Below, in pieces: positions 40,601 through 43,521 of a stretch of DNA of 64,000 bases. The DNA comes from Branchiostoma lanceolatum (lineage: Eukaryota > Chordata > Leptocardii > Amphioxiformes > Branchiostomatidae), in contig NC_089726.1 in NCBI RefSeq assembly GCF_035083965.1, positions 9,367,501 to 9,431,500 on the forward strand, written 5' to 3'. How positions within the stretch are numbered: position 1 is the stretch's first letter; every line of letters begins with the position of its first letter. The position numbers were made by a program, and so were the translations under genes. The notes under the pieces are model-generated. The model ran no database searches. It was not told where the DNA came from and was given only the letters and a program-made list of their open reading frames with translations.

Positions 40601-43521
40601 TGTATTTATGATAAGTTCAAGTCCAAAATGTGTATTATTTATTGCGTACAAATGAGGTCTTGTGGCTCTGGACATTCAGGACCATTACATTTCTCATCTC
40701 TCATATTGGACTTACATGTACATCATGTATATCTTTACATCATACTAATTTTCTACAGTGTACTTGGAGCTGTTTAACTACGAGTTTGGGTATGGATCTG
40801 TCGGCCTTGTAGCTGTAACAAACCATACTCACCCTCGAACCACTGTCTATTTCTGAGTAGTCCGGCCGTAGCCATGCCCCTCTCCTTCTCTTCACTGCAC
40901 GGAGAGGGGAGAAATTATGGGTTAGCCGGGATTAGCGAACCGCAAGCACGGCAAACGACCTACCTTGGAACCAGTGTCAATTTCTGAATAGTCGTGTCGG
41001 TGCCAGTTTCTCCTTCTCTTCACTGTGAACAGACGAGACACCAGGGGAAATTTATATGGACGCCGGTCGACAACATTAATAATGTAGCATACATCCGGGA
41101 TGATCCCATTGGTTTTACGTCCGTGTTATTGGCCATTGCCGTGATGCATCGTGATGATTATCATCCCAATTGTCATTAGTCTTTAAAGGCGTATCAAAAA
41201 TCACACTTAAGTGAATTGACTTGACTTGAAGTTAAGTATTACTGCATATCATAAATGTGCAAAATCAAAATCAACTTTTGTTTCTTCAATTATAATGTGC
41301 TCTAATATTGATAATTACATTTTGACAATGCTGTATGATAAATGATTGCATCGCTGCCATTAAGCTCCAGATTTAGTTGTAATTACCCTTTACTTTAGCA
41401 TTTTGCTTACCATATGGCACCAAATTTGTTATACCCGACACCTGGTATGCACACGTATGTACAGTAGAATGTAGGGTGATAAAGGTGCAAAGTAAATCAT
41501 AATTTATTACATGTATCATTAATTTTATTCATCCAATGTTCTATTGCACATGCAGAAGGAAAATACAACAGTTACTTAAACATTCTACACCTACATTTTT
41601 ACATGGATGCACATTTATCTACATTGTATGTAGTAGTTCACAAACATGATTGTAGAAAATAACGTAGTTACATAGAATAAAAAGAAATCAAGAGAAAATT
41701 TCAGGGAACAATGTTGGCTGTTGGCACTTACAGACAAGGGGTCCATGGACCCTGGCACAGTTGGGGCAGCGGTACTTGTCTATATCTGCTGCCTGGTGCT
41801 CTTCAACACCTACACAGCTGAAGGGAAAAAAGAGAGAAAATTTTATTGATTTAAAAAAAGCACAAATGGCTGATATAGTTTTTACAGTGCTTAAGTTTAA
41901 TGTATGAATGGACAAGTCTAGACAACTGTCAAATGTACAATTAGGATGTATTACTATTACGAAACTTAGAACAAATGTACTCTTCAAAATGTTTCAGCCA
42001 TCTTTTATGTAATGTTAGAAGTGAAGTTGTCAAATCAGAGCTTGAAAAATCCACCTGCTACTTGAAATTTGAAGAAAAATTTTCAGATTAGACATCCAGG
42101 TAATAGAGTCACTGACGAAAGATAGCGGATGCTGTCTGAAACGTCTGACTGTTTCAAAATCTTATCCAGTTGCTTGAGTAACTAGTTTTGCCATATCTTA
42201 TTACCTCAGTCACTGACGAAAGATAGCGGATGCTGTCTGAAAAGTTTCTGAAACGTCTGTTTCAAAATTTTATCCAGTTGCTTGTGTAACTATCTTTGGC
42301 GTATGAACAACTTGGCTGGGCAAGCTAAGATATCATATTTATAGGCTTGGTACTAATCAAATATTGCTGAAAATAGAAATAAAACAGTCCCAATGGAGTT
42401 GATCTATCATAGAAACAACCTTAAAATGATTTATATATCACATTATCAGTGTCATTTACACACAACATCATGAGTTAGTGACTTTGACATACTCACCAGT
42501 TTTTCCAGTTATAAACTTATCATATGTACTAGTATTGACTTGATCTGTCAGTTCATTCTAAGCTTCTAATGATGCTGAAAAAGAGTGATGGGTGTCACTT
42601 GAAATGTCTGGAAGTAATATCTGGTACAGTGAAGAATGTTTATCAATTTACAAGTAACTTTAATCTTGTTTCATTTTTGCCACTCAAAAGTAACCATCAA
42701 AGTTCCCCATTCAATTGTTAACTGGATATACTTGTTGTTTTTTTGCAGTATTTTGTAGTGGCAGCTTTGTACATACCATGTATGTTATATCTCAACAATG
42801 TTATGAAAAAAAAAAGACAGTCTGGCTATCTAGAGGAGACATGATTGTAGCACGAGGATGAAAGGTACCAGTGGCCTACGTGACCACTTACAAAAAGCTG
42901 CATAAATTATGTGTTTTGTCTTGCTTTGTGAAACTACGAGTAGTTGTACAGTTGGCACCCATAACATATGTTCTATACATTACATAGGGCACGGTAGTGG
43001 CATGAGAATACTTGTTCGAATTTACGGAAATAAAGAAAGAAATCGCTACAGCAGTATGTTGTGCTTTTCCACTTCATAAGAGCAGATGAAGGATCTGATG
43101 TACATGTATGTAGGTTGTTCGCTCGGCCACAAACGTGTTTTGTCCCAGGTCTTCTTCCCCTTAAACCTGCGTTTTACATGTCAAATACTTAATCTAAGAT
43201 TTTAACATGTTATCCAGCTGCATAAGACCACTCGTATGAGCTACTGATGCCGTAAACATAATTTTTAACCATCTGTCTCAACTTCGAAAGAAGACAAGAA
43301 GAAGAAAGGATGACCCTCCCCACAGAAAGCGATCGCATTTCACATCATTTTTTCCCCCTCCGACCTTCGCCGATTCATTTCAAATTTTCACAAAAGATGC
43401 CTGGTGTGACTGACCTTCCGTGGAACCAATTTTCGCAGACATCACACTCGATCATGAAGCGGGTGACATCGTAAGGCTGTCGGCAGATGCAGTACAGCGG
43501 CTCGTCTGGATCCGACGCCAT
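28647..43521 (-). CDS. KDM7 (PHF8/KDM7A-like): KDM7-family histone lysine demethylase (PHD + JmjC), ortholog of PHF8/KDM7A
   Basis: Exons in transcript order: 43521-43415, 41817-41732, 41022-40964 or 40894-40833, 39345-39287, 38870-38710, 38317-38176, 37733-37535, 37045-36883, 36365-36278, 36142-36036, 35719-35625, 34463-34353, 33806-33642, 33168-33020, 32678-32533, 32267-32162, 31535-31359, 31062-30925, 30736-30633, 30324-30223, 29989-29880, 29490-29283, 28735-28647. They total 2871 or 2874 nt, 956 or 957 residues. The PHD finger (about 9-60, reading [20 protein letters not shown]) should bind H3K4me3. The JmjC domain (about 150-360) keeps the iron ligands H257 and D259 (TDFHVDFGG) and H329 (GWIHAVL), and K274 for 2-oxoglutarate. 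The conserved basic C terminus [14 protein letters not shown] ends the protein. The enzyme should remove H3K9/H3K27/H4K20 mono- and dimethyl marks in the nucleus. The start is [11 protein letters not shown]; the upstream in-frame ATG lacks family support. Confidence 0.96.
39537..39685. repeat. Short inverted-repeat element related to the 20.1-20.4 kb palindrome
   Basis: The terminal inverted repeats (TAGTCTCTATCAGACTCCCTAG and a diverged complement) are about 20 bases long. The inside shares CTGGAAATAGTAGAAATTGG with the palindrome at 20136-20355. It lies in a KDM7 intron. Confidence 0.7.
40833..40894 (-). other. KDM7 linker exon B (alternative)
   Basis: This 62-nt exon, acceptor GTGCAG and donor AGG/GTGAGT, encodes [20 protein letters not shown], a diverged duplicate of exon A, with the same entry and exit phases. 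Only 69 bases separate it from exon A. If both are spliced in, exon B is entered at phase 0 and its first codon is TGA. Confidence 0.85.
40964..41022 (-). other. KDM7 linker exon A (KDM7A-like)
   Basis: This 59-nt exon, acceptor CACAG and donor AAG/GTAGGT, encodes [19 protein letters not shown] between the PHD finger and the JmjC domain, close to the KDM7A linker. It enters at phase 1 and leaves at phase 0. Confidence 0.88.
42108..42294. repeat. Tandem pair of about 80-bp repeats
   Basis: Two copies, 42108-42186 and 42209-42294, begin GTCACTGACGAAAGATAGCG and share CGTCTG, TTTCAAAAT and TTATCCAGTTGCTTG. The preceding TTAGACATCCAGGTA also occurs at about 52788 and 57130, marking a dispersed family. 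KDM7 intron 1. Confidence 0.75.

Follow-up and report, generated by a model that had tools for sequence, protein, structure and literature searches.

The mutually exclusive exons of Dscam and similar genes are guided by RNA structure, and those of alpha-tropomyosin are exons 2 and 3. In passages of PMC7969005, alpha-tropomyosin and exons 4a/4b of OGDH are described as tandem exons in which the branch points of the second exon lie less than ~50 nt from the donor of the first. A distance of ~50 nt between donor and branch point is given as the lower limit for joint recruitment of U1 and U2, and distances below 50 nt are called steric interference, in the portions of PMC7969005 and PMC5740500 that treat the matter. 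The criteria for a mutually exclusive pair that appear in part of PMC3228551 are similar length, the same type of splice sites and frame, and homology.

Sections of three papers on the human KDM7 enzymes say that the linker matters for the coupling between PHD finger and JmjC domain (PMC10321576, PMC4224472, PMC11417953). A review and one biochemical paper describe PHF8 as bent, with an activity on H3K9me2 that H3K4me3 stimulates, and KDM7A as extended, with that activity blocked; linker length is the proposed reason (PMC4224472, PMC10321576, in part). An earlier note on the DNA analyzed here had stated that the linker sets the relative position of both domains and, with it, the choice of substrate. 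The portions of PMC4224472 and PMC10321576 that deal with the subject do tie PHD-JmjC orientation and spacing to the use of H3K9me2; linker length figures there as a proposed cause. Here we describe a gene of the lancelet Branchiostoma lanceolatum in which two neighboring exons, A and B, encode alternative versions of this linker. It is quite probable that they are tandemly duplicated mutually exclusive exons of a KDM7 gene, one or the other being spliced between exons 2 and 4.

The window, a 64-kb stretch of B. lanceolatum DNA, carries the KDM7-family gene on its minus strand, from ~43.5 to 28.6 kb. When 11 exons were joined across GT-AG introns, an open frame of 422 codons (with A) or 423 codons (with B) was obtained. 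Among solved structures, its best match was human KDM7A (3kv5, E 1.6e-191), followed by PHF8 (3kv4) and PHF2 (8f8y). The NCBI protein named 'lysine-specific demethylase 7B-like isoform X2 [Branchiostoma lanceolatum]', henceforth P0001, shows the Pfam order of a KDM7 enzyme: PHD (PF00628, residues 20-65), JmjC (PF02373, 254-354) and Jumonji helical domain (PF17811, 359-462). This architecture, which human KDM7A (KIAA1718/JHDM1D) has as well, and the top structure match bear out the identification as a KDM7 demethylase made in the earlier note. Exons 5-11 encode the JmjC domain with its H-x-D...H pattern and the helical domain; the pattern is intact, and residues H267, D269 and H339 of P0001, presumably the iron ligands, are unchanged throughout an alignment of 26 proteins. 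Exact 8-residue matches to the minus-strand frames of the window cover 957 of the 966 residues of P0001, and thereby identify the species. Upstream of the internal ATG the isoform has nine extra residues, the first six of which (MKHTNR) gave no exact match in the window. Coordinates are collected in Table 1.

Table 1. Exons of the lancelet KDM7 gene and predicted splicing elements around exons A and B (positions in the window).
Feature	Position	Strand	Basis
Exon 1, from internal ATG, start of PHD finger	43415..43521	-	frame assembly, comparison with P0001
Exon 2, end of PHD finger, phase 1 exit (...CTTGTCT/gtaagt)	41732..41817	-	frame assembly
Exon A, 59 nt, KDM7A-type linker, acceptor ttcacag, donor gtaggt	40964..41022	-	frame assembly; B. 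belcheri P0002 linker, one change
A-B intron, 69 nt	40895..40963	-	sequence
Second branch point (CTAAT), 32 nt from A donor, 37 nt from B acceptor	40932	-	yUnAy scan, predicted
Best branch-point A (CTAAC), 42 nt from A donor, 27 nt from B acceptor	40922	-	yUnAy scan, predicted
Outer stem, 5' side CCGGCU, extending into the branch-point motif; paired to GGCCGG in exon B (40867-40862)	40924..40929	-	RNA folding, prediction
Exon B polypyrimidine tract, CCCCTCTCC; complementary over 9 bp, without mismatch, to GGAGAGGGG in the exon (40885-40877)	40901..40909	-	prediction
Exon B, 62 nt, alternative linker, acceptor cgtgcag, donor gtgagt	40833..40894	-	frame assembly; P0001
Exon 4, common acceptor exon, where the JmjC part begins, phase 0 entry	39287..39345	-	frame assembly
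Exons 5-11	38870-38710, 38317-38176, 37733-37535, 37045-36883, 36365-36278, 36142-36036, 35719-35625	-	
Rest of the 3' coding exons	28650..34463	-	tblastn and exact matches to P0001 past residue 432

Other features of the window and of the gene were also noticed. By eye, exons of a mu-crystallin / ornithine cyclodeaminase-type gene are found at ~46650-52150 on the plus strand (Pfam OCD_Mu_crystall on 50060-50269), and exons of a peptidase M28-type gene at ~56700-62250 on the same strand (Pfam Peptidase_M28 on 57270-57630), with a hydrophobic stretch near the end of the latter. Simple repeats that give THSL/IHPS runs in translation, of low complexity by eye and probably not genes, lie at 23750-24170 (plus) and 52150-52450 (minus). 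Exon 12 of the KDM7 gene (34463-34353, minus strand) could end at 34374 or at 34353, as a choice of donors is available with a spacing of 21 nt; the longer form, which adds VGGTAYN, is found in the B. lanceolatum isoform X2, and VGGTAYN is missing from the B. belcheri protein.

The anatomy of the pair agreed with the earlier note to the base: coordinates, lengths, phases and peptides were right, as was the length given for the intron between A and B. Both exons are entered at phase 1, after ...GPLV, and left at phase 0, before AVQTG, and the pair lies where a linker is expected, at residues 74-94 of P0001, between the PHD and JmjC domains. The points named in PMC3228551, as far as that text goes, are all found here: A and B measure 59 and 62 nt and lie 69 nt apart, both are bounded by AG/GT with phase 1 in and phase 0 out, and B keeps 15 of the 20 residues of A with a DNA-level score above all shuffles. 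Exclusivity also follows from the frame, since neither of the remaining combinations is productive. Joining A to B yields ...DTGSK followed by TGA at the junction, and skipping both shifts the frame (...LVCSANGDSS...) and leads to early stops; the two claims made in this respect proved correct. Probably, A and B form a new pair of mutually exclusive exons, and the site that they occupy is an interesting one.

We know of no alternative linker exon in vertebrates. A term look-up in the main texts of two papers on human mutually exclusive exons (PMC5740500, PMC9741552), as far as these were covered, did not find KDM7A, PHF8, JHDM1D or PHF2 named. Alternative KDM7 linkers, or this lancelet gene, had no match in the titles and openings of abstracts of the open-licence papers listed. 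Mutually exclusive tandem exons are a known kind; the KDM7 linker instance did not turn up among the papers listed.

A second layer of exclusivity may come from the intron between A and B, which is about half as long as the next shortest one measured between exons 1 and 12 (135 nt). Human genes often have introns measuring 50-150 bp according to part of PMC2856156, so that 69 nt does not by itself make an intron unspliceable. The A-B intron has just two yUnAy sites, which lie 32 and 42 nt downstream of the A donor, and by this consensus prediction both fall short of 50 nt. If the ~50-nt limit holds in lancelets, these predicted branch points would hinder joining of A to B, and the frame would remove what slips through, because a message that carries A and B together, or lacks the two of them, runs into an early stop. 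The claim of mutual exclusivity thus stands by frame, and the proposed hindrance of A-to-B splicing stands as a prediction from branch-point distance. The exon anatomy and the frame logic are observed; steric hindrance and decay of misjoined mRNA are what we infer from them. In this respect the A/B pair resembles alpha-tropomyosin and OGDH, and its both-in combination is not productive. Unlike in OGDH, whose branch points are called 'distant' from the 3' splice site in the text available (PMC7969005), the intron between A and B is simply very short, with the predicted sites lying 27 and 37 nt upstream of the B acceptor. Inclusion of A together with B could also be viewed as a regulated product, the stop at the junction lowering KDM7 through mRNA decay. 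The position of the TGA, directly after exon A, would suit such a role; the short intron with its near predicted branch points, in turn, disfavors the splicing event that the role demands, and we regard this reading as extremely improbable.

How the pair arose was examined by similarity scans. When the A peptide was compared with the six frames of the 64 kb (BLOSUM62, local), exon B scored 65 and the next, unrelated place 38; in 20 single-base shuffles of the window the peak scores ranged from 31 to 43. At the DNA level A and B scored 48, and the best of 300 shuffles reached 31. Among the flanking introns, similarity was no greater than in shuffles, the three values being reached by 76, 300 and 39 of 300. 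A copy above chance between flanks without similarity looks like an old exon duplication. An assembly duplication or tandem alleles were rejected on the same lack of similarity in the flanks, and the six-frame scan of the window brought out no obvious third copy. LKRRR is identical in A and B, also in DNA, and DYSEID.GS is kept; between them, A has NWHRH and B has GAWLRP. Exon B can accordingly be read as a diverged copy that would have preserved both ends, basic KRRR at the start and DYSEID.GS at the close, and exchanged NWHRH for GAWLRP. Silent differences are found inside the kept residues (CGA/CGG, TAT/TAC, ATT/ATA, TCC/TCG), suggesting that the end of the linker is under selection.

Models labeled 'isoform X' by NCBI generally rest on RNA-seq. 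Residues 74-94 of P0001 are the 21 residues of exon B exactly, and the 423-residue B form is contained in P0001 letter for letter. With this match exon B is no decayed copy, and the possibility of a pseudo-exon was discarded. A protein of B. belcheri (P0002) has the exon A linker with one change, and A alone. A single use is annotated in each species, namely B in the B. lanceolatum isoform and A in P0002; that one animal would use both is something we infer, given that each linker was seen in a different species. P0001 and P0002 also differ by the seven residues VGGTAYN that depend on the donor of exon 12, and isoforms X1 and X2 need not, for this reason, differ by A and B. In a protein database merged at 90% identity, P0001 and P0002 were the only lancelet-named clusters detected, which is consistent with a single KDM7 gene in lancelets as far as protein clusters can tell. 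A protein search at fragment length with the B isoform gave no lancelet-named match; two proteins without organism name were 57-58% identical.

The earlier note had proposed to look for the pair in other animals. Protein searches with the B isoform, in which 40/181, 18/28 and 7/85 (fragment lengths) of the candidates passed, left 59 proteins for comparison. The A type turned out to be widespread: an NWHRHD linker was present in 26 of the 59, including B. belcheri, the hemichordate Ptychodera, many molluscs, the nemertean Lineus, frog KDM7A and four proteins without organism name. A PHF8-type KRRRG linker was found in 30 (amphibians and reptiles), two proteins had neither type, and the B type was seen in P0001 alone; given the merging at 90% identity, one in 59 neither shows nor excludes B elsewhere. 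Human KDM7A is A-type as well, and human PHF2 retains WHKH. Because NWHRHD occurs in molluscs, a hemichordate, a nemertean and vertebrate KDM7A and B occurs in P0001 only, A is, on its distribution in the proteins compared, the ancestral linker, and B is derived or has been lost or hidden elsewhere.

The presence of B in the cluster of one species admits another explanation, that B, although a genuine duplicate, is close to neutral, enters a small share of the transcripts and persists because the linker it encodes is tolerated. Linkers vary widely among PHF8-type proteins, and a changed linker may hence be tolerated. Against such a fate, the frame of B is still open, its two splice sites and a consensus branch point are in place, its DYSEID.GS end is preserved under silent changes, and B is the form contained in a named NCBI isoform; near-neutrality appears rather unlikely to us.

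The next matter is what exchange of the linker would do to the enzyme. The PHD-JmjC geometry differs between PHF8 and KDM7A, with linker length as a proposed reason, so that linker exchange should change coupling; swapping A for B would alter the coupling between the H3K4me3-reading PHD finger and the JmjC active site. Judged by sequence, the A linker is clearly KDM7A-like, its counterpart in human KDM7A being NWHRHDYTEIDDGSK. PHF8 (KDM7B) resembles B in having a glycine after the basic run and no NWHRH; elsewhere the two linkers are unlike. By a hand count that begins with the first K and ends with the V of VxxG, the linker has 20 residues in A, 21 in B, 20 in human KDM7A, 19 in PHF2 and 17 in human PHF8. 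In the 30 amphibian and reptile PHF8-type proteins (P0010, P0013-P0034, P0037-P0039, P0054-P0057) it has 19-21 residues, and 21 of the 30 have 21. The length of B is thus that of most of this set and not that of human PHF8, and length speaks against B as the linker of human PHF8 (21 vs 17). These 30 linkers share 6-8 of 20 residues with B and 5-8 of 20 with A. Since the set was sorted by the KRRRG motif, the glycine that its members share with B lends no independent support; beyond KRRRG, and PD in some reptiles, B and PHF8 have little in common. As a separate observation, a PHF8 linker of 17 residues in human and of 19-21 in reptiles and amphibians fits badly with length alone setting the bent geometry.

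On these data one may ask whether A behaves like KDM7A and B like PHF8. Splicing of a single gene would then do the work of two vertebrate paralogs, as the earlier note had suggested. The proximity of A to the human KDM7A linker, the loss of NWHRH and the glycine after the basic run that B has in common with human PHF8, and the different PHD-JmjC geometries of both human enzymes, for which linker length is the proposed cause (PMC4224472, PMC10321576, in part), speak for such a substrate switch. The lengths, however, change in opposite directions, as B is longer than A (21 vs 20) and human PHF8 shorter than KDM7A (17 vs 20), and the PHF8-type linkers are a mere 0-2 of 20 residues nearer to B than to A. 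There is a weak hint that B might make a PHF8-like enzyme, and the substrate switch seems doubtful.

A hairpin predicted at the acceptor of exon B (40862-40929, minus strand) pairs the branch-point motif and the polypyrimidine tract with codons of exon B itself. In the fold, the polypyrimidine tract CCCCUCUCC is fully paired with GGAGAGGGG of exon B. Folds of 40 nt on either side of the acceptor were computed for 14 of the 15 acceptors, exon 13 being left out. The acceptor of B was the most stable of the 14 (-30.7 kcal/mol, z -2.55 for 80 nt), the others ranging from -9.3 to -21.4. In a wider fold of 241 nt the z value was -1.75, and 10 of 200 shuffles were as stable. Synonymous recodings of exon B reached the real stability in 43 of 2000 cases with 40+40 nt, in 42 with 69+62 nt and in 424 with 30+30 nt; for exon A the respective figures were 1611, 1650 and 1079, that is, no effect. 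Of 19 paired bases of exon B, 13 belong to the codons GGG GCA TGG CTA CGG CCG, or 10 if TGG, which is common to A, is omitted.

Averaged over the 25 intron bases next to the acceptor, the probability of being unpaired was 0.50 for B, 0.39 for A, and 0.38, 0.40, 0.49 and 0.34 for exons 4, 5, 9 and 15; B lies inside the span of the others (0.34-0.83). As the pyrimidine tract of B is not unusually paired, the hairpin is a weak lead. In swap folds, exon B behind the intron of A gave -25.2 and exon A behind the intron of B gave -16.0. The acceptor of exon 4 also has a 9-bp complement when G-U pairs are counted. A tentative proposal is that the hairpin may hold the B acceptor, A being used by default and B under regulation, when the stem opens; the folding model gives a weak indication that the A/B choice might be regulated in this manner. 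A predicted helix covering a splice acceptor is also a trait of Dscam-type exons guided by RNA structure, in the part of PMC6071210 concerned. The pairing at B is, however, local, between acceptor and exon, with no selector pairing across alternatives, and it comes from a single prediction.

The same data bear on the idea that the divergent middle of exon B was shaped mainly by RNA, with codons that pair with their own acceptor and keep B off by default, the peptide change being a by-product. The concentration of paired bases in codons that distinguish B from A, the top rank of its acceptor, the low stability of exon A behind the intron of B, and the scarcity of recodings as stable as the real exon at 40+40 and 69+62 nt in comparison with exon A all point in this direction. 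A frequency of ~2% is, however, weak after several tests and rises with 30+30 nt, the pyrimidine tract is no less accessible than others, and exon B is stable behind the intron of A too. We consider shaping by RNA quite improbable. Still less probable is the broadest version of these ideas, in which one locus would give a KDM7A-like form with A and a PHF8-like form with B, each vertebrate paralog would have kept one linker type after genome duplication, and the hairpin might partly set the choice.

Duplication of the linker exon with exclusive use of A or B is the reading we favor. Should one animal use both linkers, nature would have changed the hinge alone, and enzymes with the same catalytic domain and PHD reader could be compared. 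Such a comparison would be a direct test of whether linker geometry decides how H3K4me3 reading steers the removal of H3K9me2 or H3K27me2. If true, a chordate that branched before the vertebrate genome duplications would cover by splicing what vertebrates may do with paralogs.
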